64,000 nucleotides of DNA from Dehalococcoidia bacterium. GTDB taxonomy: Bacteria > Chloroflexota > Dehalococcoidia > E44-bin15. The translations under genes and the position numbers were made by a program. This document shows positions 29,685 through 52,160 of the stretch, one piece after another. The first letter of the stretch is position 1; every line of letters starts with the position of its first letter. The stretch is taken from contig DATKYK010000034.1 in assembly GCA_035528575.1 (NCBI GenBank), positions 1-64,000 of the forward strand, given 5' to 3'. A model generated the notes under the pieces. It was not told the origin of the DNA. It searched no databases and saw nothing but the letters and a program-made list of their open reading frames with translations.

Positions 29685-30587
29685 CTATAAATTGGCTGCC
29701 CGTTCCACGCAGCGTTTCCACCTGGCATTTACCCGTTCCTGCAGTTTGTTAATCTGCTCTTGGGTAATACTGTTAAACCTCCCCTGTTCCATGAGAAATT
29801 CTCTCACCGGCCTTAGATTACCCTTTCGGGCAATGGATTCACTGGCCGATGTGAGGTGGAAAACGCCGTCCTCAACCTCATAGAGTACGACCCATCCCGT
29901 CTGTACAGCGAGCTCGCCGATCTTGATGGTGTCACTGAAGGGGAAGCGCCATCCCGGGGGGCAGGGTGTGAATACGTGTATGAACCTGGTTCCCTCTATT
30001 GCCTTTGCCTTGCTGACCTTCTGGTAAAGGTCCAGGGGATAGGAAGCATTGGCTGTAGCGACATAGGGGATGCCGTGCGCTTCCATTATCGCGGTCATAT
30101 CCTTCTGATTCTGCTGCTTGCCCAGTATAGGCGTGGTACCTGAAATGGCGCCCAGGGGGGTGGAGCCAGAGCGCTGATTGCCGGTGTTCATATAGCCCTC
30201 GTTATCGTAGCAGATATAGATGAAATCCTCTCCCCTTTCAGCGGCGCCGCTCAACGCCTGGATCCCGATATCGTGTGTGCCGCCGTCACCGGCGATGGCC
30301 AGTACAGTTAATCCCTTTCTGCCCAGGGCTTTCAGCCCGGCAACCAGTCCGGTAGCCGATGCGGCGGTGGAGGCGAATGGCGTGTTTACACAGGGGACAT
30401 TTACCGATGTTACCGGGTACATGCCGTGCAGTACGGTTAGGCAACTGGCTGGCACTGTCACGATAACCTGCCCATCCAGCGCTTTCAGGATATGGCGGTA
30501 GGCTAGAGACAGGGCGCAGCCGGGGCAGGTCCTGTTGCCTGGCAGCAGATATTCTATTTCGGGAAGGTTAACTGCATTAGTTTTCAA
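29685..30587 (-). CDS. porB: 2-oxoacid:ferredoxin oxidoreductase, beta subunit
   Basis: A 300-residue TPP-binding subunit. The N-terminal CPGCALSLAYR supplies cluster-ligand Cys residues. The TPP/Mg motif is GDGGTHDIGIQAL to CYDNEGYMNTGNQRSG. With the alpha, gamma and delta subunits it oxidises a 2-oxoacid plus CoA to an acyl-CoA, CO2 and reduced ferredoxin. The last gene of a four-gene minus-strand operon, 13 bases after the alpha gene. Substrate preference (pyruvate, branched-chain or aromatic 2-oxoacid) cannot be told, so the por symbols are only nominal. Confidence 0.88.
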   Translation of the reverse strand: MKTNAVNLPEIEYLLPGNRTCPGCALSLAYRHILKALDGQVIVTVPASCLTVLHGMYPVTSVNVPCVNTPFASTAASATGLVAGLKALGRKGLTVLAIAGDGGTHDIGIQALSGAAERGEDFIYICYDNEGYMNTGNQRSGSTPLGAISGTTPILGKQQNQKDMTAIMEAHGIPYVATANASYPLDLYQKVSKAKAIEGTRFIHVFTPCPPGWRFPFSDTIKIGELAVQTGWVVLYEVEDGVFHLTSASESIARKGNLRPVREFLMEQGRFNSITQEQINKLQERVNARWKRCVERAANL

Positions 30588-30600
30588 ACCGGCAGGCCTC

Positions 30601-31836
30601 TCAAATATGACATATCCATTCGGGGTATTCGCGGTTCAAAACCCCCTCTTTAAGAGATGGCAGCGCCTTCCTAACCGCATCCGCTATCTCTCTGGCTTTT
30701 ACATCACGACCACCCAGTCCGACAATGAAGTTTCTTATTACCGCATTTATACCACTTCCGTAGAGGGCTGATTTGATTTCCGAGCAGGTGGCTCCTTCCG
30801 AGCCGTAGCTGATATTCTTATCGAAAACCGCGATAAGGCGGGTTCTCTTGAGCGCCTTCACCAGATCAATTTTAGGGAAGGGTCTTAGCACTCTCAAGCC
30901 CAGGACACCCGCCCGGTGTCCTTCTTCACGGAGCATGTTTGCCGCCACTACTGCCTCCATCGCCAGGCTGCCCGTTGCCACAATAGCTATATCGGCATCA
31001 TCCATTCTGTCTTCCCAGAACATACTGGCGTAGCTTCTTCCGAATAGCTCGCTGAATTCCCGGCTGACCTTGCTTATGGTCTCCCTTGAATTCTGCAGAG
31101 CCTCCTGGAGCAGAAACCTCAGCTCCATATACCCGTGGCAGAGCACGCCCTCAGCGTTAACCCTGGGGTTTGCCAGGGTTACCAGGTTGTAGTTCCTGGG
31201 GTTGGCCGGGTCCAGTGTGGTGTGGGGGCTGTAGTGGGGTAGAAACCTGTCCACTTCCCCCTGTGACGGCACATCCACCGGCATTTCAGTATGAGATAGG
31301 ATATAACCGTCGTAGCAAACCATAACCGGCACATAGACTGTCTCGGCAATCTTATAGGCCTGGATCACCGAATCCAGTATCTCCTGGTTGTTTCGGGCGT
31401 ATATTTGTATCCAGCCGGTATCCCGTTGGGATATAGAGTCCTGTTGGTCATTGAGAATACTCCAGGGTGCTCCGATAGCACGGTTTACGCAGGCGAGAAC
31501 CAGGGGGAGGCGTGTCCCGGCAGCCCAGTGCAGCATCTCGTGCATGTAGGCCAAGCCGTGTGAACTGGTGGCGGTGAAGGTCCTGGCTCCTACAATAGAA
31601 GCCGAGGTGCATACGGCGAGGGCGCTGTGCTCACTCTCGACGGCAATATACTCGGCATTCAACTCCCCTCGTTCCACGAATTCAGAGAGGATTTCGGTGA
31701 CCGGTGACTGGGGCGTAATAGGGTAGGCAGCGATCACCTGGACACGGCTGAGCTTTGCCCCCTGGGCTGCAGCGTGATTGCCATCAATTATCCGTATATC
31801 GGCTTCGCTATCTGTCTTCTTGCTCAAATCACTCAA
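30601..31836 (-). CDS. porA: 2-oxoacid:ferredoxin oxidoreductase, alpha subunit
   Basis: A 411-residue subunit with the PYR-domain N-terminus (GNHAAAQGAKLSRVQVIAAYPITPQSPVTE), the conserved ESEHSALAVC segment and a C-terminal transketolase-like domain (VLGLRVLRPFPKIDLVKAL). It forms the active site together with the beta subunit. It starts five bases after the delta gene. Confidence 0.88.
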   Translation of the reverse strand: MSDLSKKTDSEADIRIIDGNHAAAQGAKLSRVQVIAAYPITPQSPVTEILSEFVERGELNAEYIAVESEHSALAVCTSASIVGARTFTATSSHGLAYMHEMLHWAAGTRLPLVLACVNRAIGAPWSILNDQQDSISQRDTGWIQIYARNNQEILDSVIQAYKIAETVYVPVMVCYDGYILSHTEMPVDVPSQGEVDRFLPHYSPHTTLDPANPRNYNLVTLANPRVNAEGVLCHGYMELRFLLQEALQNSRETISKVSREFSELFGRSYASMFWEDRMDDADIAIVATGSLAMEAVVAANMLREEGHRAGVLGLRVLRPFPKIDLVKALKRTRLIAVFDKNISYGSEGATCSEIKSALYGSGINAVIRNFIVGLGGRDVKAREIADAVRKALPSLKEGVLNREYPEWICHI

Positions 31837-31841
31837 TCTGT

Positions 31842-32132
31842 TTAGAGGTCCTCTTCATTTACCATGGTTATAGCCTGTGCCGGGCATACCTGAGCGCATA
31901 TTCCACACCCTTTGCAGTACTCTAGGTTTATCTGGACCGGTATGGTTTTACTGATGAGTGCGTCCGGGCAGTAGAGCCAGCATATAAAACAGGCTGGCTT
32001 GCCGCGCTTTGCAGGGATGCACTTTTCGGGGTCTATTACTGGAAGTGAACTGCGCCACTCGCCTGTCCTCCCGGCTTCTCCAATACCCGGTGACGATTCA
32101 CCACATATATGCTGGCAACTCCTGGTTCCCAT
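31842..32132 (-). CDS. porD: 2-oxoacid:ferredoxin oxidoreductase, delta (ferredoxin) subunit
   Basis: A 96-residue double [4Fe-4S] ferredoxin. The second cluster motif is regular (CKGCGICAQVCP). The first is stretched, with nine residues between the first two Cys (CIPAKRGKPACFICWLYCP), a pattern common to the delta subunits of this enzyme. It carries electrons from TPP to soluble ferredoxin. Nine bases separate it from the gamma gene. Confidence 0.88.
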   Translation of the reverse strand: MGTRSCQHICGESSPGIGEAGRTGEWRSSLPVIDPEKCIPAKRGKPACFICWLYCPDALISKTIPVQINLEYCKGCGICAQVCPAQAITMVNEEDL

Positions 32133-32141
32133 AACTTTCTA

Positions 32142-32720
32142 TCACCCTGTTTTCTGTAGCCTGGTTATCTCGTAGGTCTTCCTGAATGCGATGATGTTAT
32201 TATCTACTAGGCTATCGGAGAATCTTTCTCTTATTACCTTTTCTATGCTTGCTATATCTACCAGCTCAGTAGCACGGACTAACGCGCCCAGTATAGCTGT
32301 ATTCACCACGGTTAAGCCGGCAACTATGAGGCCCAGCTCCCGGCATACCCTGGTGGCATCAGCAGTAGCGATGTTGAAATCACCGTTAACCTCGAGTTCA
32401 TCTGGACGCTGACGTGAGTTCACCACCAGCCATCCCCCCCTACTCAGTCCGCCGATTACATCCTTGTCTCTCAGCAGGGTGTGGTCTAGGACTACTACAA
32501 CGTCGGGTTCTTCCACCTGTGACGTAACCATGATTGGCTGCGGGGAAATCCTGGTTGATGCGCTTACCGGAGCGCCTCTCCTCTCGGCGCCAAACCATGG
32601 TGCAGCCGTTACCCCCTGATAGCCTTTGAGGTAGGCTGCCTGTGCCACTATCTTGGCGGCCGTTATGGCCCCCTGACCGCCCCGGCCATGCCATCTAATC
32701 TCGTAAAGCCTTGTTTCCAT
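32142..32720 (-). CDS. porG: 2-oxoacid:ferredoxin oxidoreductase, gamma subunit
   Basis: A 192-residue gamma subunit with the family start (RWHGRGGQGAITAAKIVAQAA) and APWFGAERRGAPVSASTRIS. It binds CoA and contacts the alpha subunit. First gene of the gamma-delta-alpha-beta operon. No good ribosome binding site is visible before ATG 32720, so the message may be leaderless or weakly translated at this gene. Confidence 0.88.
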   Translation of the reverse strand: METRLYEIRWHGRGGQGAITAAKIVAQAAYLKGYQGVTAAPWFGAERRGAPVSASTRISPQPIMVTSQVEEPDVVVVLDHTLLRDKDVIGGLSRGGWLVVNSRQRPDELEVNGDFNIATADATRVCRELGLIVAGLTVVNTAILGALVRATELVDIASIEKVIRERFSDSLVDNNIIAFRKTYEITRLQKTG

Positions 32721-36080: not shown

Positions 36081-36878
36081 CTAGCTAAAGCGTTCCGCAA
36101 AAATGCGTTTTTCCACGATATTGCGAACGGCGGCAAGGCCTGGTGATGTGGTGAGCTCCATTAAGGGCTTGCCCAGCAGATCGTAGTGGGCGATATCTTC
36201 ATCCTGGGGGATATAACCAAAAACCTCCAGTCCCATATCCTGTGCGGCTTGTCTTAATAATTCCTCGTTACCCTGCACCCTATTAAATACCAGGCCCAGC
36301 CTCTCACACTGGATCACCCTCTCGCTCTGAGCCATCCCTTTTATCTGGGCTGCGGTCTGCAAGCCCCTGGATGTAGCATCACTAATTATAATCAGGGTAT
36401 CGACGTGGCCCATGACCTGCCTATTTATCTGTTCCAGGCCGGCCTCGCCATCGATGAGGATGGTGTCGAAGCTCTTGGAGAGGGTTTCTATCGCCCCACG
36501 CATAAGGTTGTTGACCGGACAGTAGCAGCCCAGCGTTTCGGTGCGTCCCATAGCCAGCAGGGCGAAGTTGTCCATCTCCTCGAGGGCCTCAAATACCATG
36601 TAGTCGAGCTTATCGACCAGTTGGCGACTTTCTTCCTGCTTGCCCTTCCTGGCAGTCCTGATTATCTCCTCACGGATTTGGCCCATGGTTCGTCTGACGG
36701 TTATGCCAAGGGCGAGGGGCAGGCCCATGGCCGGATCGGCGTCAATGAGCAGCAGCTTGCCTCTCTGGCCATTATCCAGTAGGACCTTGGTCATCATGGC
36801 AGTGAATGCGGTCTTACCTGTGCCTCCTTTGCCGCATACAGCGACAAGCCTGTTTTTTGGAGTGGTAGATTCAGCCAT
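36081..36878 (-). CDS. cooC: CooC-type P-loop ATPase (nickel insertion/maturation)
   Basis: A 265-residue MinD/SIMIBI-class ATPase. The deviant Walker A CGKGGTGKT lies at residues 15-23, and LLLIDADPAMG and TILIDGEAGLEQ are the switch regions. The motif GCYCPVNN has the Cys-x-Cys of CooC proteins, which bind metal at the dimer interface and help insert nickel into carbon monoxide dehydrogenase or acetyl-CoA synthase. The second ATG (36878) is preferred because AAGGAG is eight bases away. It follows an acetyl-CoA-synthase-like gene by 29 bases, so that protein is its likely client. No CODH catalytic subunit is in the window. Confidence 0.82.
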   Translation of the reverse strand: MAESTTPKNRLVAVCGKGGTGKTAFTAMMTKVLLDNGQRGKLLLIDADPAMGLPLALGITVRRTMGQIREEIIRTARKGKQEESRQLVDKLDYMVFEALEEMDNFALLAMGRTETLGCYCPVNNLMRGAIETLSKSFDTILIDGEAGLEQINRQVMGHVDTLIIISDATSRGLQTAAQIKGMAQSERVIQCERLGLVFNRVQGNEELLRQAAQDMGLEVFGYIPQDEDIAHYDLLGKPLMELTTSPGLAAVRNIVEKRIFAERFS

Positions 36879-36907
36879 GGGCATTTCTCCTTCTCAGATC
36901 AACAAGG

Positions 36908-37708
36908 CTATGAATTAGCAGCGGTCTTAGTTTTCTTTGTTTTTTTCTTGCGCACCTTAACTACCGTCCTGATTTCATCGCACACCGGTTTATATTCGCA
37001 GGAGCGGCAGTCCCAGCCGAGGGTGCACTCGATTTCATCCAGGTCGTAGCCTTTAGCCTTCCAGACATCCTTGGTGATGTTATGGGATATCTCCCGCACC
37101 TGCTCGTCGATGCTCTCCAGGGGCTTAAGGTCCTCCCTGCTCGAGGTAACGAAGATAATCTCCATTGCCTGTATCTTGGACACCTCTGACTTGAAGATGG
37201 CCATTAGCGCCCTTCCCAGGGTCTCGAAACAAAAGCCCTTCTCCGCCGCCTCATTACTCACCCTGCTCCACATGTGCTGAGGTATGCTTCTTATCATGTA
37301 GCCCTCTATCTGGTCGGCTATGTACTGGTTACGCGCCAGCTCTTCGTGCTCTTTTTCGCTGAGGCTCTCTCCACTAACCATGAGGACCTGGCCGAAGGGC
37401 AGGCTGCCCCCTGACGATTCCGGGATATCGGGGCCGATGAGTGTAATCCTGCCGTCTCTGAGCAGGGAGGTGTTATCGGTCCATAGCAGGAAGGCGGAGG
37501 AACCGCAATCCGGATTCCCCAGCTCGATGAAGGTGTCTCCCCTGAGTATTATTCCTGGGCTCGCCCCGGGGCCAACCCGCACCGGAAGCCCTTCAAGAAG
37601 CTCGCTGACCGAGAGAGGACAATCGATCTCTCTGACTTCGCCACCCTTCTGGCGCACCTCCGCCCTGTATTGAGTCAGCTTCTTAATGTATATGTCGAAG
37701 ATTGCCAT
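36908..37708 (-). CDS. Truncated acetyl-CoA synthase beta-subunit-like protein (CdhC/AcsB family)
   Basis: A 266-residue protein aligning by eye with the region of CdhC/AcsB before and around the A-cluster: FIELGNPDCGSSAF, then DGRITLIGPDIPE and FGQVLMVSGESL, then GFCFETLGRALMAIFKSEV. Real A-clusters have CTLC...C...C and a distal Cys-Gly-Cys that holds the two nickel ions. Here the cluster region reads CTLGWDCRSCEYKPVC (four Cys, different spacing), and the protein ends in a Lys-rich tail with no Cys-Gly-Cys. It therefore cannot be an ordinary acetyl-CoA synthase. It may hold a simpler Fe-S or metal site, matured by the neighbouring CooC. Start ATG 37708. Confidence 0.65.
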   Translation of the reverse strand: MAIFDIYIKKLTQYRAEVRQKGGEVREIDCPLSVSELLEGLPVRVGPGASPGIILRGDTFIELGNPDCGSSAFLLWTDNTSLLRDGRITLIGPDIPESSGGSLPFGQVLMVSGESLSEKEHEELARNQYIADQIEGYMIRSIPQHMWSRVSNEAAEKGFCFETLGRALMAIFKSEVSKIQAMEIIFVTSSREDLKPLESIDEQVREISHNITKDVWKAKGYDLDEIECTLGWDCRSCEYKPVCDEIRTVVKVRKKKTKKTKTAANS

Positions 37709-37877: not shown

Positions 37878-38666
37878 TCAGGATTTCTTACTCAGTCGCT
37901 CCCTGGCGATGAGGGCTGCCCCTATCGCCCCGGCGATCTGGGGGTCTGAGGGCAGCTTTATCACGCTTACCTTTAGCTTCTCCTCAAGTGCCTTGGCCAG
38001 CCCTTCGTTCTTGGCGCATCCGCCGGTCAGCGCCAGGTCTTCGACGAGGCCCACCTTCCGCACCATGGAATTCAACCTGCCCGCCACCGCGTTGTTGACA
38101 CCGGCGGCTATATCGACCACTTCTGTACCCTCGTTGATCAGGGTTACAACCTCGGACTCAGAAAATACGCTGCACTGGCTGGTTATGATGGCCGGGCTCT
38201 CTGACTTGAGCGAAAGAGATGAGATTCCCTCCAACCCACATTCGAGCACGCGGGCCATCGCCTCGAAGAACCTGCCCGTACCCGCAGCGCACCTGTCATT
38301 CATAACGAACTCGAGGACATTGCCCTTATCATCTAAGGACATCACCTTGCAGTCCTGCCCACCGATGTCGACAACCGTTCTCACTGTGGGGCAGAGCCAG
38401 TGGGCGCCGCGGGCGTGGCACGTTATCTCCGAGATGTTTTCATTGGCGAAGGGAACCTTGAGACGGCCGTAGCCGGTTCCCACGATATATCCCAAGTCAT
38501 CCAGCGATGACAGACCAGCCTTCTTAAGCGCCTCATCCATGGCGGTACGCGCCGTAATCTCTGGCTTGGTAGTGGAGGGGATAATCACGTACGAGGTGAC
38601 TTCACCGTTCTTCATCACAACCGCCTTGCCGGTAGCAGAACCTACATCACAGCCTCCAACAATCAT
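37878..38666 (-). CDS. ATP-dependent activator of 2-hydroxyacyl-CoA dehydratase/benzoyl-CoA reductase type
   Basis: A 262-residue ASKHA-fold ATPase of the HgdC/BcrA-D/BadF family: GGCDVGSATGKAVVMKNG at the start, DIGGQDCKVM and NDRCAAGTGRFFE with the two Cys that bridge a [4Fe-4S] cluster between the two monomers, and GGCAKNEGL near the end. It hydrolyses ATP to push an electron onto the partner at very low potential. ATG 38666 (MIVGGCDVG) is chosen: AAAGGAGA precedes it. It lies 31 bases after the partner gene. Confidence 0.9.
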   Translation of the reverse strand: MIVGGCDVGSATGKAVVMKNGEVTSYVIIPSTTKPEITARTAMDEALKKAGLSSLDDLGYIVGTGYGRLKVPFANENISEITCHARGAHWLCPTVRTVVDIGGQDCKVMSLDDKGNVLEFVMNDRCAAGTGRFFEAMARVLECGLEGISSLSLKSESPAIITSQCSVFSESEVVTLINEGTEVVDIAAGVNNAVAGRLNSMVRKVGLVEDLALTGGCAKNEGLAKALEEKLKVSVIKLPSDPQIAGAIGAALIARERLSKKS

Positions 38667-38697: not shown

Positions 38698-40008
38698 CTA
38701 TTTCTGGCCCAGCCCCGTTGCGCTGAAGAACTTGGAAAACTTGTCCTTGACCTCGTCCACCGAGGTGTACCTCTTGTCAAAAATATCGACGCCGAGGTGC
38801 AGGTAAGGAACCCCTAGCTCACGGCACTTCTCCCTCATCATGCCGGTGTTGGCCGAGCCGTCCTTGTGGCCCATATGCGCTGGCCAGACGACGCAGTCGA
38901 TCTTGTAGTCTTTGACAATTCTCTCTATATCGCCGAGGAAGTGGTCAGCCACACCCCGCGCCTGCCGGATCATGGGATACTGGGTGAGGGATCGCTTGGA
39001 CAGGTCCCGGAACATGGTGTCCTCGTTCTTAGTGTCTATTGGCTCATACGGGGTATGGCCGAACATGTTCATGACGATGCTCACTCCCCACTCCGACTCC
39101 AACCACGGTTGTATGTCGAACTGCCACATCAGCGGCAGGATGTCAAACCACAGCATCCTGATCTTCTCCCCACCCGGCACACCGCTTACCCCTGCCTTTA
39201 CCCGTTTCTCTGCGTTGGCAATGAGTCTCTTGAACCATTCGGCGCCCCCGGGCTTGCCGGGATAGTAGAAGGTAGCCATGGCGAAGCATTGCGGCGGGCC
39301 GATGGTCCAGTCGTGGGGACATGGCACCACCCGCCTGAGTTCGTTGTATTCCTGCCACAGCGCGTACTCCTTGTTGGACTCCTCGCATACCTCCCGCAGC
39401 CGGTCGATATCCAGCTTGTATCCGGTGTGCTCGGTGACAAAGTCCACCATACGCCTGAGCTCCTCGGCATAGTACTCATAGCTTCGCTCATCCTCCCAGT
39501 AAGGGGGGTCAGCGCCGAACATCGGGACGTCATGCCACTTGCCGTGTTTAATCGCCTGGTGGACTATTGTGGTACCGTCGCAGGGGTGAAGCAGGGCGAT
39601 ACATGCAGTCGGCTTTGGACTCATATCGGCCTCTACATAGTACAGTGAAAGCCTGAGCACGGTACAGAAATCGCTGCCCAGCAGCCTCTCGGATCCATCG
39701 ATATCGTCGGTGATGTGTGGCGCTTCGATCCCGAGGAATGCAGTCTGGGGAAACATCCACCACGGGACACCCATGGCGGTAAATAGCTCCGCTGCATAGG
39801 CGAACCAGCTCGCGATGAATGGCTTGTCGTTTTCGGCACAATCCAGTACTTCGTCATACTTATCCAAAACCGCCTTTATTACGCCCTTATTGATCTCTGC
39901 TTCCTCGGATTCATCCAGCGAAAGCGCATCCAGGAGCATCTGCATATAGGCTTTATCATCTCTATATAGTTTAAGTGCTTTTTCAGGTTGTTTTCTCTTT
40001 GTAGTCAC
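38698..40008 (-). CDS. 2-hydroxyacyl-CoA dehydratase/benzoyl-CoA reductase-like subunit, larger
   Basis: A 436-residue member of the HgdB/BcrB superfamily. The C-terminal Rossmann-like half has CVVWPAHMGHKDGSANTGMM and REKCRELGVPYLHLGVDIFDKRYTS, the family pattern for the DxxD...R end. Where many members have a Cys in this HxxCK motif, this one has His (HMGHK), so its cluster ligation may differ. Start GTG 40008, three bases after the other subunit's stop and preceded by GGGGAGG. With the 40012 gene it should form a heterodimer that takes electrons from the activator. Substrate unknown; reductase, dehydratase and double-cubane-type protein are all open. Confidence 0.8.
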   Translation of the reverse strand: MTTKRKQPEKALKLYRDDKAYMQMLLDALSLDESEEAEINKGVIKAVLDKYDEVLDCAENDKPFIASWFAYAAELFTAMGVPWWMFPQTAFLGIEAPHITDDIDGSERLLGSDFCTVLRLSLYYVEADMSPKPTACIALLHPCDGTTIVHQAIKHGKWHDVPMFGADPPYWEDERSYEYYAEELRRMVDFVTEHTGYKLDIDRLREVCEESNKEYALWQEYNELRRVVPCPHDWTIGPPQCFAMATFYYPGKPGGAEWFKRLIANAEKRVKAGVSGVPGGEKIRMLWFDILPLMWQFDIQPWLESEWGVSIVMNMFGHTPYEPIDTKNEDTMFRDLSKRSLTQYPMIRQARGVADHFLGDIERIVKDYKIDCVVWPAHMGHKDGSANTGMMREKCRELGVPYLHLGVDIFDKRYTSVDEVKDKFSKFFSATGLGQK

Positions 40009-40011
40009 CGT

Positions 40012-41157
40012 TTACCTCCCCATGCTTTCCAGGAATGCCTGGGCCCTGGTTCTCAACTGGCCAGCGCCGGCCATGATATATTCCCTATCCAGCTTGAGGA
40101 AAGGAATACCCTCCTCTTTTAAATCCCCGCCGAGCATGAAATTCTCACCTGTCCACAGGTCGCAGAAGATCATCCGCTCGCCGATAACCCCGTCAACCTT
40201 GAATTCCTTGACCATGTCTATAACGAACTTGGACCTTTGCGGTTGAGTATCGAACATGCGCGGACAGGCGGGTTTATCCTGGATGTAGTAACGCGCCAGG
40301 GCAGCAAGCGGGTCATTGGACTTCTCATCGACCTCATTCCATATGATTCTGGTGCCGAAACACATCGAGTCGGTGACCACCAGACCTCCCTGCTCCTCGA
40401 TGACTTTAATGAACGCCGGATCATCGAGTATGCCAGCCACGATCATCAACCTCGCCCGATAATCCTTGATGCCTTCCGCGTCGCTCAGCTCTTGCAGCAG
40501 CTCCTTGAGCATCTGGTTAAACGGCTCCCTCGGCATGGCGGTGCTGGCCACGACAACGGCAAGTGCTTCCGCACCGGTTATCGGCGGGTTATCCTTTTTC
40601 CTGAGCTCATAGAGCTGCCTCAGCAGGCGCCGCGTCTGGTTGTGGAGCTTTATCGCCTTCCATAACTTTTCATCGCTGATGGTGATGCCTAGATGCTTTT
40701 CCAGAGCCTCCTTCAGTATTTTTAATTCGTCGCGGAACCACTGCACCTGCACATCGGTGGTCATCTTGGGGAGGCTCATCATTTTGGTGAACGGTGTGTC
40801 CACCTTGCGTATCCAGTTATCGTATATGCGCCGGACGTGGTCGCAGTTGTTGAGCCAGATGAGCCCCTCGAGGAAATCGTAGTCGCCCTGCAGCCCCATA
40901 TTGTAGCAGTGACGGCAGAAACTGCAGTTGATGCTGCTCAGATAAGCATCCGCCAGCTCCGTCCCCCTGCTGCCTGTGGCCCTCATGCGGAAGGGGACCA
41001 TACCTGCGGCGGTGATGATCTCCTCCGGCCCATAGGAGCAGAAGTGGCCCACCACCTTGCCGCCCTGCTCTATCCATTTCTTCAATTCAGGGTTAACGAT
41101 GGTCTCGGTTGCTTCCTGGAATTGCTGCAATACCTTCGATTTTACTGTGGTCTCCAA
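40012..41157 (-). CDS. 2-hydroxyacyl-CoA dehydratase/benzoyl-CoA reductase-like subunit, smaller
   Basis: A 381-residue HgdB/BcrC-type subunit. Typical N-terminal segment HFCSYGPEEIITAAGMVPFRM, then INCSFCRHCYN with closely spaced Cys for an Fe-S cluster, and a C-terminal GVIGERMIFCDLWTGEN plus EEGIPFLKLDREY. Start TTG 41157, because AAAGGGGGAAA sits upstream and no ATG is in frame there. First gene of a five-gene minus-strand operon (two subunits, activator, acetyl-CoA-synthase-like, CooC), driven by a promoter at 41287-41315. Confidence 0.85.
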   Translation of the reverse strand: METTVKSKVLQQFQEATETIVNPELKKWIEQGGKVVGHFCSYGPEEIITAAGMVPFRMRATGSRGTELADAYLSSINCSFCRHCYNMGLQGDYDFLEGLIWLNNCDHVRRIYDNWIRKVDTPFTKMMSLPKMTTDVQVQWFRDELKILKEALEKHLGITISDEKLWKAIKLHNQTRRLLRQLYELRKKDNPPITGAEALAVVVASTAMPREPFNQMLKELLQELSDAEGIKDYRARLMIVAGILDDPAFIKVIEEQGGLVVTDSMCFGTRIIWNEVDEKSNDPLAALARYYIQDKPACPRMFDTQPQRSKFVIDMVKEFKVDGVIGERMIFCDLWTGENFMLGGDLKEEGIPFLKLDREYIMAGAGQLRTRAQAFLESMGR

Positions 41158-41269: not shown

Positions 41270-41289
41270 AGTATACTACACTATATACT
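41270..41289. promoter_or_regulatory. Possible operator at the dehydratase-operon start site
   Basis: AGTATA (41270-41275) and TATACT (41284-41289) form an inverted repeat with an eight-base spacer, overlapping the -10 box and the expected start of transcription. Confidence 0.4.
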
Positions 41290-41315
41290 ATAAATCGAAT
41301 TTAACTGGGTGTCAA
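41287..41315 (-). promoter_or_regulatory. Promoter for the dehydratase/reductase-like operon
   Basis: On the minus strand TTGACA (41310-41315), 17 bases, TATAGT (41287-41292). It gives a leader of about 125 bases before the TTG start at 41157. The rest of the 41316-41615 gap shows only the ribosome binding site of the next gene on the other strand. Confidence 0.7.
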
Positions 41316-41615: not shown

Positions 41616-42623
41616 ATGGAAACAGGCGATGTATACACCGAACTGGTTAAGAGGCTGAATTATACCGGGTCGGAAAGTCTGCTCCGGGTATTGCAGAAGC
41701 TTTTTACCCCTGATGAGGGTAGGCTGCTGCTCCAATTACCGGCTGAGCCATCTGACTTGGCCCGTAAATCGGGAACGGACGAGGAGACGGTGCAGCGGAA
41801 GCTCGAGGAGTTCATGGAGAGAGGACTGGTCATCCCCACCAGTAAGGGGTTTTGCTTCGCCCGAGATGTGACGCAGCTGCATGATTCCACGCTTTCTAGC
41901 GATGAGAAATGGATCGATACCGAGATTCTGGACCTGTGGAAGGAGCTTCAGGAAACTGAGTGGATTCAGCGAATGGCAAGCGGCCTCGGGGATTCGTATG
42001 TGCAGTTTATCAGGGTTCTTCCCGCCTGGAAGGCGATCGAGCGGAGCCCTGAAATCTCGGACGGCGAGCTTTTACCCGAGGAGAATATCAGGGAGCTAAT
42101 TAAAGGAGCAGACCACATCGCAGTGATTCCCTGTAGCTGCCGCAGGTCGATGAGGGGGTGTGATGCCCCGATTGATGTCTGCCTTCAATTCAACCGGGGA
42201 GCGGAATATGCCATCAATCGGGGTGCCGGAAACAGGATTTCCGCGGAGGAGGCCGTCGCTATCGCCGATCGAGCTGAGGATGTGGGCCTGATACACACCT
42301 GGCCCATGGCGGCATACGGTCGTCTGAATGAGATATGTAACTGTTGCCGCGATTGCTGTGCCATCTTCGCTATCGGCATCAAGCTGGGCAATATGGAGCA
42401 AATTCTGGAGAAGAGCCGTTTTCGTGCTGAAGTCGATCAGGAGCTTTGTAACGGCTGCCAGGACTGTGTGGAGCGGTGCTTTTTTGAGGCAATAGAAATG
42501 AAGAAGTCTTCCACATCCAGGAAGCTCAAGGCCACGATCGATTTGGCAAAGTGCTTCGGTTGCGGCCTGTGTGCTGTCGTCTGCGACCCTGGTGCTATTA
42601 TCATGAAGGTGGAGCAAGCATAG
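41616..42623 (+). CDS. Winged-helix plus multi-cluster ferredoxin protein
   Basis: A 335-residue protein. The N-terminal 85 residues look like a winged helix (LARKSGTDEETVQRKLEEFMERGLV). A middle domain has Cys-rich motifs IPCSCRRSMRGCDAPIDVC and ICNCCRDCC. The C-terminus is a two-cluster ferredoxin (CNGCQDCVERC and CFGCGLCAVVC). Similar proteins in anaerobes are annotated only as 4Fe-4S binding proteins. It is divergent from the dehydratase operon, so it may donate electrons to it, or sense redox state and regulate. ATG 41616 follows AAGGAGG. Function is inferred only. Confidence 0.7.
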   Translation: METGDVYTELVKRLNYTGSESLLRVLQKLFTPDEGRLLLQLPAEPSDLARKSGTDEETVQRKLEEFMERGLVIPTSKGFCFARDVTQLHDSTLSSDEKWIDTEILDLWKELQETEWIQRMASGLGDSYVQFIRVLPAWKAIERSPEISDGELLPEENIRELIKGADHIAVIPCSCRRSMRGCDAPIDVCLQFNRGAEYAINRGAGNRISAEEAVAIADRAEDVGLIHTWPMAAYGRLNEICNCCRDCCAIFAIGIKLGNMEQILEKSRFRAEVDQELCNGCQDCVERCFFEAIEMKKSSTSRKLKATIDLAKCFGCGLCAVVCDPGAIIMKVEQA

Positions 42624-49009: not shown

Positions 49010-49687
49010 ATGAAAAAGATTCTAATTAGCGTGATGGTGATTGCCGTGGCTGTTGCCATTGTTGCCGGTGGCACCATGGCCTACTTCAGCGACACCGAGA
49101 AGAGCACCGGCAACGTCATGACCGCCGGAACTTTGAACATGACGATAGCCGATAACAATGAAGGTTGGAATAATGGTGTTCCTGTTACTGCATCATGGCA
49201 GTCACCAAGTGGCTGGGCACCAGGAGAGACTTTTACTACTGGCGTAATTAGCTTGCGTAATGTAGGAAGTATCCCCATTAACTACCTGTTCACCACCTAC
49301 TACAATTACAGCTACACTGTTGCTGACCTAGCTAAAGTAATAGAGGTTGTGGAGTATAATGAGTACATACCCGGGTATGGTTGGATAGACAGTATGCAAC
49401 CAACCCAGGATCTATGGAAGCTGGTGGGTGATAACCTGCAACCGTTGACACTCAAGGAGCTGATACTCGCTTCGTGGGTGGGAGACACCACTTGGGTAGA
49501 CTACTGCACTGGTGATGGCTATGATGTGGTACCCGCGGGCAACCCTGCTATACCGGTAGGCGGAACTTACCAGATTTACCTAGTGCTCAAATTCGCGGAT
49601 GCTGCTGGAAATAGTTATCAAGGAGCTTCGTGCTCGTTTGATATCGAGTTCGAGGGGGTCCAAGATAATGTAAGTCAGAAGCATTAA
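49010..49687 (+). CDS. TasA/camelysin-like secreted protein with SipW-type signal
   Basis: A 225-residue exported protein. The N-terminus has the SipW-dependent signal pattern: Lys pair, hydrophobic stretch VMVIAVAVAIVAGGTMA, then AYFSDTEKSTGN. The mature part is beta-rich, with the TasA/camelysin-like pattern ISLRNVGSIPINYLF and a strand-rich end (GGTYQIYLVLKF). In Bacillus such proteins form matrix fibres after cleavage by the ER-type signal peptidase SipW, which is encoded here at 50549. ATG 49010 follows AAGGAG. Confidence 0.85.
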   Translation: MKKILISVMVIAVAVAIVAGGTMAYFSDTEKSTGNVMTAGTLNMTIADNNEGWNNGVPVTASWQSPSGWAPGETFTTGVISLRNVGSIPINYLFTTYYNYSYTVADLAKVIEVVEYNEYIPGYGWIDSMQPTQDLWKLVGDNLQPLTLKELILASWVGDTTWVDYCTGDGYDVVPAGNPAIPVGGTYQIYLVLKFADAAGNSYQGASCSFDIEFEGVQDNVSQKH

Positions 49688-49784
49688 CCAGTAACCCAAC
49701 CCTAACCGGTCAGCAGAGGTAGGGCAGGGCAACCTCCCTGTCCTGCCTACTCTCCCTAGACACTAGAAAGGAGGGTCAGTCAAT

Positions 49785-50406
49785 ATGGAGAAGTTTCTGC
49801 TGAGAAAGCTTCTGCTTTCAATGCTGGCTGCCTTTCTGGTGATAGGGTTGGTAGGAACCGGCACCTTTGCCTGATTTCAGGACACCGAGACCAGCACGGG
49901 AAACACTTTCACTGCTGGAACCCTTGACCTGAAGTTGAAGGACAACAGTGAGCCCTGGGGGGACGGCGTCACTGCAACCTGGACGATGTCGAACATGAAG
50001 CCGGGAGACGAGCTCACAGGCACAGTAGAGGAACTCGGCCTGAATAACGTGGGCTCGGTACCGGCAAGCACGTTGGACATCACGGTGATTAACACCGTCA
50101 TCGACCCTCTTGGCCCGGAGTCGGACACGGAAGAGGGCACCACCGACATGGACTGGTTCATGCAGGTAACGTGGATGGAATACGAAGATGGCGCTGGCGT
50201 AATCAACTGTTTGCTCCTCTTCGAGGATGTCAAGAGTAACGGGTGGAAAGACCTGGACGACTTGGAGAAGGATCCCATCATCGGGCCTACCGGCCCCGGT
50301 TGGCACCGGACGCTTCCAGCTGGGTCTAAAGTTCCACCCAACCGCCGACAACGACTATCAGGGTGATCAGTTGGTCAGCGACTTCGTATTCACTCTGAAC
50401 CAGTGA
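49785..50406 (+). pseudogene. TasA/camelysin-like gene with in-frame TGA and a frameshift
   Basis: From ATG 49785 (AAAGGAGGG upstream) a signal-like start runs to GTGTFA, then TGA at 49872-49874 where the family has Tyr (A-YFSDTE), and continues FQDTETSTGNTFTAGTLDL. Near 50297 a frameshift is needed to reach RFQLGLKFHPTADNDYQGD and the normal family end FVFTLNQ with stop at 50404. Everything else is well kept, so inactivation looks recent. TGA recoding is unlikely, because other genes here end in TGA and the second lesion is independent. It is a paralogue of the 49010 gene. Confidence 0.75.
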
Positions 50407-50451
50407 ACCAGTAGAGTAGCCAGTAAGTTATGCTGCAACGGCATCTTGATT

Positions 50452-50481
50452 GGGTGCCCCCCGATTTATCGGGGGGCACCC
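50452..50481. terminator. Strong hairpin before the signal peptidase gene
   Basis: GGGTGCCCCCCGA (50452-50464) and its exact complement (50469-50481) form a 13-pair stem with loop TTTA. No long T run follows, so it may attenuate rather than fully stop transcription into sipW. Confidence 0.55.
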
Positions 50482-50548
50482 GTAGTGGGGTATTATTGAA
50501 GGAATCTTCATAATTTGTTATTCGAACAGCGACAAGGTAGAAGGGTAA

Positions 50549-51094
50549 ATGCTGACAAGGATTTTTGAGGCTCTGGCAACCGTGCTTCTGGTGATGGCTA
50601 TCCTGGTGTCGGTGGGTATCTTCGTTGGCCCGAAGGTCGGCTGGCAGGTCGATGCTGTATATGGCGGCAGCATGGAGCCGGCAATAAAGCTGGGAAGCCT
50701 GGCGGTGATAAGGCCGGTAGAGCCTAAAACCGTTAGCGAGGGAGATATTATCACCTTTGCACCCCCCACCGATACCAGCGTTAGAGTTACCCACAGGGTG
50801 ACGCAGGTGATCGATGGGGAAAGCGGACTGGTATTTCGCACCAAGGGCGATGCCAATGAGGAACCCGATGCTTACACTGTGCCGGCGCAGAATGTCGTGG
50901 GCAGGGTGTGGGTGAGCGTCCCTTACGCGGGATATTTTACGGACTTTGTTAGGAGCACGCTCGGCCTTGGTCTCCTCATCGGCATACCGGCTGCTATCAT
51001 CATCGGGATCGAGCTGAGGAACATTTTTATTGCCTCCAGGGATTTGCGGCGAAAACGTGAAAACGTTATGTTAGACAGGCTTCAAAATGAGTAA
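50549..51094 (+). CDS. sipW: Signal peptidase I, SipW/ER type (family S26B)
   Basis: A 181-residue membrane peptidase with an N-terminal and a C-terminal hydrophobic helix. The catalytic Ser41 lies in GGSMEPAI. His82 in THRV replaces the Lys of bacterial LepB, which marks the ER/archaeal/SipW class, and Asp101 and Asp107 follow in KGDANEEPD. It should cleave the SipW-type signals of the neighbouring TasA-like proteins. The last eight bases overlap the next gene, so the PT-repeat protein is probably coupled to it. Confidence 0.88.
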
Positions 51095-52160
51095 GGTTCG
51101 AATCATATTCATTCTGGGCGTAGCCCTTCTGCTGGTGGTGAACTCGATGCAGCTTTTGCTGACGGCGGCCTCGATGGATGTGGGAGACAGCCGGGCCTAC
51201 TTCAGCGATACGGAGACGACCAGTGTCACCATTCAGGCAGGGGTCTGGTGGCATGAGGCCGATGACCTGGTCGTGGACAAAGATAAGGCCGAGCTGGTTG
51301 GGTCCCCTTATGGTGCTCATACCAGACTTCATGGCATGAAGATTGGAAACGGCGGTGAATATAACATCACCATAGACAAGGTCAAGGTTAGCTGGACTCC
51401 TAATGGGGCGGATATTCGGATAGTGAACATTTGGTTTTGGGGCGAGGTGGAATGGACTGGTGAGAAGCCCTCTGGGACGGAACTGGATATTGGAAATTGC
51501 ACCATTGCACCAGAGGAAAAATACAAGATCGATTTCACCTTCGATGAGAACATGGAGGGGAAGGTTTTCATCATCGATTTCATCATGAGCGATGGCTCAA
51601 TACTACCCGACCCCTTTGGACCGGTTGCTGTGGCGGAGGGAGAGCTTATGCCTACGCCCACACCAGAGCCTACGCCCACCCCAGAGCCAACACCGACGCC
51701 AGAGCCAACACCTACACCGGAGCCTACTCCTACTCCAGAGCCGACGCCGACGCCAGAGCCGACATCCACACCGGAACCAACACCGACGCCAGAGCCGACA
51801 CCCACACCGGAACCAACACCTACGCCCACACCAGAGCCAACACCTACACCGGGTCCAACGCCTACGCCAGAGCCGACACCCACACCCGAGCCAACACCTA
51901 CGCCAGAGCCAACACCCACACCGGAGCCTACACAGACACCAGAGCCAACACCCACACCAGAGCCAACGCCCACACCAGAGCCAACACCTACGCCTGGGCC
52001 AACGCCCACTCCAGAGCCAACGCCCACGCCAGAGCCAACACACACTCCAGAGCCAACGCCTACACCTGGGCCGACACCTACTCCAGAGCCAACGCCCACA
52101 CCGGAGCCAACGCCTACACCGACTCCAGAACCGACACCGGAGCCAACGCCAAGTCCATAG
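51087..52160 (+). CDS. Exported protein with SipW-type N-terminus and long Pro-Thr-Glu repeat tail
   Basis: A 357-residue protein. N-terminal hydrophobic segment ([20 protein letters not shown]), then [13 protein letters not shown], the SipW-type motif. Residues 40-187 form a beta-rich domain. From about residue 188 to the end it is an array of EPTPT-type units, a stiff Pro/Thr tail such as spans cell walls or presents glycans. No LPXTG or C-terminal membrane anchor follows. Coupled to sipW by an eight-base overlap. It may be a minor subunit or anchor of the TasA-like fibre, as TapA is in Bacillus; that is inference. Confidence 0.8.
51650..52157 (+). repeat. Pro/Thr-coding tandem repeat tract
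   Basis: About 500 bases of degenerate repeats around CCAGAGCCAACACCTA, with units of 12 and 18 bases, coding [11 protein letters not shown] few units vary ([19 protein letters not shown]). Such tracts change length easily by slippage. Confidence 0.85.

Follow-up and report, generated by a model that had tools for sequence, protein, structure and literature searches.

A piece of acetyl-CoA synthase (ACS) that lacks the nickel site of this enzyme seems to have been recruited as a helper protein by an ATP-driven iron-sulfur enzyme family related to benzoyl-CoA reductase (BCR); the arrangement occurs in three anaerobic bacterial groups. ACS is regarded as among the oldest enzymes. In a 64,000-nucleotide stretch of DNA from a Dehalococcoidia bacterium, referred to here as the window, one ACS domain is encoded as a separate protein, which we name ACSL, in a compact group of genes for two subunits resembling BzdN and BzdO, an activase, and a CooC-type ATPase. 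The fold and the enzyme family are known; we rate the combination as new. The features of the ACSL gene are as follows.

36908..37708, minus strand: ACSL, a stand-alone ACS middle-domain protein of 266 aa (PF03598, AF2 model, VIA-align, dN/dS).
37058..37612, minus strand: ACS middle-domain fold, ACSL residues 33-217 corresponding to ACS residues 316-495 of 3git_B (VIA-align).
36980..37027, minus strand: four-cysteine tail C-x5-C-x2-C-x5-C, residues 228-243, CTLGWDCRSCEYKPVC (alignment of relatives and profile alignment).

The reading frame was confirmed, and all of the stretches quoted in an earlier sequence-only reading of this DNA, which had described a CdhC/AcsB-like protein that lost its Cys-Gly-Cys site, are present in its product. 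Both parts of that description stand. In Pfam, residues 42-190 match PF03598 (CdhC) with 67.7 bits (E 1.3e-18, cut-off 24), the profile search yielded no assignment to an unrelated family, and in a PDB sequence search every match at E <= 8.6e-9 is an ACS. The NCBIfam models for CdhC/ACS are matched at 1e-17 to 1e-21, yet with about a fifth or less of their curated cut-offs, and the scores lie beneath the equivalog thresholds of TIGR00316 (68.6 against 355.95 bits) and NF040764 (63.9 against 800). An AlphaFold (AF2) model built from 62 relatives, with a mean pLDDT of 86 that falls to low values at residues 226-233 and 252-254 and to about 50-60 where the cysteines lie, fits only ACS structures: in Foldseek (E 1.5e-13) all 23 matches at E <= 0.001 are ACS. 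VIA-align places 177 residues of the model on 3git_B with a Z score of 20.6 and an rmsd of 2.1 Å, and because the range so aligned is residues 33-217 on ACS 316-495, ACSL is only the middle domain of ACS, existing as a separate protein. These fold comparisons rule out an unrelated family with a chance CdhC score. A match to PDDEXK_1 (16.3 bits, under the cut-off of 22) spans the CxxCx5C region, which resembles that of AddB/Cas4 nucleases; a nuclease reading was rejected, and the likeness is taken as convergent since the fold search returns ACS alone.

The C-terminal A-cluster domain of ACS, PF19436, has no Pfam match in ACSL, and Cys-Gly-Cys, the distal nickel site, occurs nowhere in its 266 residues. 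The possibility raised earlier, that a frameshift conceals this domain, did not hold up: the CooC gene starts 23 bp past the ACSL stop codon, and the full-length relatives, of 237-332 aa, have the same kind of C-terminal end. In an alignment of 66 relatives, which includes fragments and one near-copy, W147 and R149 are invariant, as are the last three cysteines of the tail (C234, C237, and C243), while the first tail cysteine is present in 53 and absent in 13. When a profile of 62 relatives is aligned with solved ACS structures, three of the four tail cysteines fall on the first three cysteines of the A-cluster, although the spacing differs, being C-x2-C-x8-C-x9-C plus Cys-Gly-Cys in ACS. The earlier proposal that the A-cluster has been replaced is thus correct as to the altered spacing and the missing Cys-Gly-Cys, but the correspondence of three cysteines speaks against mere replacement. 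Given this overlap in three columns with the start of the A-cluster motif, the tail would most simply be what is left of the cubane portion of that site, severed from the nickel half. From the cysteine pattern we infer that the tail binds a predicted [4Fe-4S] cluster; that it can hold at most such a simple, putative cluster is plausible.

ACSL thus resembles ACS (CdhC and AcsB; PF03598 plus PF19436) in the fold of its middle domain and in a cysteine motif directly after it, and differs in the absence of the C-terminal domain, in its cysteine spacing, in the absence of the N-terminal CODH-binding domain, and in having no CODH or CFeSP genes beside it. ACSL is not a broken ACS, for it forms its own supported clade, is under purifying selection, and shares its genome with an intact AcsB. 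In a tree, a branch with 100/100 support divides 63 ACSL rows from 23 ACS rows, the latter all from the window's class, and dN/dS is 0.31 against the relative at locus L003 (dS 0.10) and 0.11 against that at L004 (dS 1.48). The AcsB, of 745 aa, lies on contig C12, the only contig of this genome with PF19436, and carries both the A-cluster motif and Cys-Gly-Cys. By eye, it adjoins genes resembling those for a corrinoid protein and a methyltransferase, and a CooC. That ACSL is a decaying, truncated, frameshifted, or mis-assembled acsB fragment, as its shortness relative to ACS could suggest, is ruled out by the fact that full-length copies from many genomes group in a clade of their own with full support, by the dN/dS values, and by the invariance of W147, R149, and three cysteines; we assign this explanation practically no probability.

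With a complete AcsB elsewhere in the genome, the earlier conclusion that ACSL does something other than acetyl-CoA synthesis holds. It is extremely improbable that ACSL still forms C-C bonds as an ACS variant without the distal nickel. The middle domain shared with ACS and the adjacent CooC would fit such an activity; against it, ACSL lacks PF19436 and Cys-Gly-Cys, and its operon contains no CODH or corrinoid protein. An ACS C-domain was found in 35 of the 51 genomes with ACSL, where a true ACS thus runs in parallel, and none was detected in the other 16, several of the 51 being incomplete or of unknown completeness. By these counts, a coupling of ACSL to the Wood-Ljungdahl pathway is not obligatory. 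In a Dehalococcoidia locus (L051, 3783-12425) we observed a divergent ACS-like arrangement of two CdhC-type proteins, one of 454 aa and one of 481 aa, and after each of them a protein of roughly 835 aa.

The sequence-only reading overlooked the operon in which ACSL lies, with its BzdN/BzdO-like pair, activase, and CooC. In minus-strand order, with ACSL itself the fourth of five genes, its members and the features ahead of them are as follows.

41616..42623, plus strand: divergent neighbour with a helix-turn-helix-like start and a 2x[4Fe-4S] ferredoxin end (NCBIfam and neighbourhood clustering).
41287..41315, minus strand: weakly supported promoter-like hexamers (11 of 12) upstream of the five-gene group.
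40012..41157, minus strand: HGDC, a BzdN-like subunit with six cysteines (PF06050, 332.5 bits; closest PDB match BzdN of class I BCR, 1.4e-52).
38698..40008, minus strand: HGDB, a BzdO/HadB-like catalytic-type subunit (PF06050, 158.6 bits; BzdO profile match).
37878..38666, minus strand: BcrAD/HgdC-type activase (PF01869, 202.8 bits; TIGR00241, 255.4 bits, cut-off 125.4).
36081..36884, minus strand: CooC-type P-loop ATPase with GKGGTGKT and GCYC motifs (nearest PDB match CooC-1 of Carboxydothermus, 3kje, 7e-12).

The gaps between the five genes are 3, 31, 169, and 23 bp, and we infer that they form one transcript. The activase frame runs to 38780, and the ATG at 38666 is its likely start. As 5 promoter-like sites were found against 4.4 expected, their number is not significant. 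The product of the divergent gene is possibly an electron donor or a regulator. Elsewhere in the window lie a 2-oxoacid:ferredoxin oxidoreductase cluster (29685-32720) and, by eye, two secreted proteins with TasA/camelysin-like starts that flank a signal-peptidase-like gene (49010-52160).

HGDC and HGDB both have the HGD-D fold (PF06050) and are accompanied by an activase of the BcrAD type (PF01869), which is the composition of the class I BCR/2-hydroxyacyl-CoA dehydratase family. In HGDC, C40, C78, C105, C266, C298, and C332 align with the [8Fe-9S] cysteines of BzdN, and these six double-cubane cysteines are kept in all 56 rows of its alignment. A profile of HGDB relatives matches BzdO at 2.7e-42 and HadB at 9e-40; the predicted cluster ligands of HGDB are C115, C143, and H381, of which the two cysteines are kept in 71/71 rows. 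The catalytic cluster of BzdO is ligated by Cys95, Cys128, and Cys380 (excerpts of PMC11971306). Position 381 of HGDB, aligned to C380 of BzdO, is cysteine in 44 of the 71 rows, histidine in 26 (the window included), and a gap in one; with H381, this radical reductase family possibly includes a naturally occurring Cys2His cluster. As read from the alignment, the catalytic His131 of BzdO is not kept, its column being occupied by Thr146.

The operon therefore matches the class I BCRs (BzdNOPQ, BcrCBAD) in having a BzdN-like subunit in which all six cysteines of the double cubane are present, a BzdO-like subunit, and one or two ATP-dependent activases, and differs from them in the third ligand of the catalytic cluster, which is His in the window, in the unconserved His131, and in the additional ACSL and CooC. 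Its HGD proteins score below all NCBIfam BCR cut-offs (TIGR03190, 192.4 of 453.8 bits; TIGR02263, 154.3 of 421.15; TIGR03191, 23.3 of 448.6). With the (R)-2-hydroxyacyl-CoA dehydratases (HadBC, HgdAB) and DCCP it has in common the HGD-D superfamily and an activase; in contrast to these, the system is heteromeric with ACSL and CooC, and the best NCBIfam score of HGDC, 220.7 bits to a double-cubane model, lies under the DCCP cut-off of 350. Like CooC-1, the nickel ATPase of CODH, the operon CooC has a GKGGxGKT Walker A and a CxC metal motif, and this deviant Walker A and the metal motif are both kept in 42 of 43 copies. Unlike CooC-1, the operon proteins have no CODH gene adjacent and form a clade separate from five Wood-Ljungdahl CooC.

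At a threshold of E <= 1e-25, ACSL occurs in Dehalococcoidia, in the phylum of the Desulfobacterales, and in Bacteroidetes. Matches were found in 26 of 294 genomes of the window's class, one of which (G674) encodes a CdhC-length protein in a 415-aa frame and was left out of the ACSL counts; in 24 of 297 genomes from the phylum of a Desulfobacterales metagenome-assembled genome; in one of 149 from the order of a Bacteroidetes one, namely that genome itself; and in one of 51 drawn evenly across the window's phylum, which is the window's own copy. The 64 loci compared were fetched by ACSL alone and not by their neighbours; 50 of them have at least 4.5 kb of upstream and 59 at least 1.5 kb of downstream sequence. 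HGDC and HGDB both lie on the same strand within 8 kb of ACSL in 47 of the 50, which rules out a chance neighbourhood, and an activase is beside it in 42 of the 50. The association of ACSL with the reductase operon is well supported. CooC was found within 8 kb in 41 of the 59 loci, and wherever the two share a strand they are adjacent (43/43), CooC lying directly downstream in 42 cases and directly upstream in one. Clustering of the neighbourhoods further returned recurrent neighbours: acyl-CoA dehydrogenases at 20 loci, the ferredoxin-like protein at 9, and an SCP2-like protein at 7.

The three exceptions among the 50 loci are L007, L105, which has HGDB only, and L111, which has neither gene. 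At the Desulfobacterales locus L007 (3579-10658), an ACSL-CooC pair lies beside other redox genes; by eye, methylenetetrahydrofolate reductase/heterodisulfide-reductase parts are nearby, and a cysteine-desulfurase-like gene is just downstream of the pair. L111 (8811-9614) belongs to a divergent ACSL group without HGD genes and of unsure tree position, as do L112 (1944-2747) and L113 (2024-2827), whose upstream sequence is too short to be counted and which look like L111. An acyl-CoA dehydrogenase gene adjoins ACSL in L112 and L113, and likewise, by eye, in L111. The relatives with three tail cysteines (CxxCx5C), found at the 13 loci L099, L102, L105, L106, L108-L110, L114-L118, and L120, form one clade of the tree, and for 12 of the 13 no ACS C-domain was detected in the genome.

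The window's own genome contains 12 HGD-D matches in total. Four further HGD pairs in it (L139, L140, L141, and L142, of which L140 and L142 are on short contigs) have no ACSL adjacent, so that ACSL generally has HGD proteins beside it but does not generally accompany them. L139 has two activases and looks like an ordinary BCR cluster. L142 (4705-9766, contig C3) has an acyl-CoA dehydrogenase, the HGD pair, an activase, and an SCP2-like gene, a gene set that corresponds to a second type of ACSL operon, which usually carries ACSL. At L140 (1014-9196, contig C45), a His-type HGD pair is beside CoA-transferase genes and a PFL2/3-family glycyl-radical enzyme with its activator, and the contig has no activase for the HGD pair.

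In BzdNO, which holds one [8Fe-9S] and a catalytic [4Fe-4S] cluster, an activase dimer uses ATP to drive ferredoxin electrons onto the clusters (excerpts of PMC11971306). Because the parts of this system are present here with their ligands, the natural reading is that the five genes encode a predicted ATP-driven acyl-CoA reductase or dehydratase. CoA contacts the middle domain of ACS in Clostridium autoethanogenum, as cited in the portion of PMC12289521 that we draw on, and for this reason we tentatively favour, at somewhat below an even chance, a role of ACSL as a putative accessory iron-sulfur subunit of the BzdNO-like enzyme, perhaps recognising CoA or gating electrons. The tail of ACSL would bind a [4Fe-4S] cluster, and the protein would dock on the BzdNO-like pair or its activase; through the middle domain, which in ACS contacts CoA, it may recognise the CoA moiety of the substrate or control the delivery of electrons. 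With ATP hydrolysis, the activase would energise electrons from ferredoxin, which would then be held in the double cubane of HGDC; reduction or dehydration of an acyl-CoA, supplied by neighbouring pathways of the acyl-CoA dehydrogenase type, would take place on the BzdO-like subunit. CooC would be the dedicated ATPase of ACSL, for metal loading or assembly.

The intact cluster sites of HGDC and HGDB, the presence of both subunits at 47 of 50 loci, the position of CooC directly after ACSL, and the acyl-CoA gene context support this subunit role. Counted against it are the low confidence of the model around the cysteines, the 13 of 66 relatives with three cysteines, the three of 50 loci without a full pair, and the HGD pairs of the window's own genome that lack ACSL. 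A CoA role in particular is opposed by the column of W418 (Moorella numbering), which we take to be the CoA-near tryptophan of ACS: it is Met138 in ACSL, and archaeal CdhC likewise has Met there. Furthermore, BzdO-type subunits themselves bind CoA (excerpts of PMC11971306), and a second CoA-binding domain may therefore be superfluous.

The main rival to the accessory subunit is cluster maturation, which we consider possible though doubtful: ACSL would be a scaffold or metal-transfer protein that, with CooC, builds or loads a cluster of the BzdNO-like enzyme without itself belonging to the active complex. AcsF loads the A-cluster site of ACS, and it is with this site that the tail cysteines align. 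The strict adjacency of ACSL and CooC is consistent with a shared maturation function, as are the persistence of the pair without reductase genes in L007 and the finding that the 12 CooC of the three-cysteine loci group together in one clade, just like the ACSL proteins of these loci. In addition, CooC proteins load nickel in CODH; each CooC-1 dimer takes up one Ni, and Cys112/Cys114 coordinate Zn (excerpts of PMC6006190). Against maturation, CooC is missing within 8 kb of ACSL in 18 of 59 loci, most of which still have ACSL next to the reductase pair. Moreover, the clusters of known class I reductases are present without an ACSL, and the BCR-like pair at L139 has none.

We regard it as rather unlikely that ACSL serves electron transfer only, carrying electrons from ferredoxin to the activase with the ACS fold as a docking platform and no CoA role. 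The conserved cysteine tail, the ferredoxin-type neighbours at 9 loci, and the 2-oxoacid:ferredoxin oxidoreductase cluster in the window would agree with such a carrier, but the three-cysteine forms would leave an open iron site, unusual in a pure electron carrier, and canonical BCR activases receive electrons straight from ferredoxin (excerpts of PMC11971306).

A more far-reaching idea, to which we give a still smaller probability, is that these operons encode a further, third line of ATP-dependent radical reductases acting on acyl-CoA, combining a double-cubane BzdN-like subunit, a BzdO-like subunit with a mixed Cys2His cluster site, and a former ACS domain, and that by way of CooC they may contain nickel or another second metal. 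With such a second metal, this would be a new metalloenzyme joining parts of ACS to parts of BCR. Nickel at His381 of HGDB was considered by comparing the presence of CooC with the residue at this position, and no link was found, as loci with Cys381 and CooC (for example L046, L097, and L100) and loci with His381 and no CooC (L091 and L092) both exist.

In our searches of open-access papers, we found no account of an association of ACSL with an HGD pair and CooC, and none is reported in the excerpts of PMC2996986, PMC10936416, PMC13056359, PMC5736913, PMC10134865, PMC6006190, PMC12289521, and PMC11971306. As ACSL scores well with CdhC profiles, it may be miscounted as ACS in surveys of the Wood-Ljungdahl pathway. 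In these bacteria one ACS domain persists as a conserved protein family of its own, linked to another family of radical enzymes. Should ACSL prove to belong to the enzyme, it would bring to the BCR/dehydratase family a novel feature, an additional iron-sulfur subunit.
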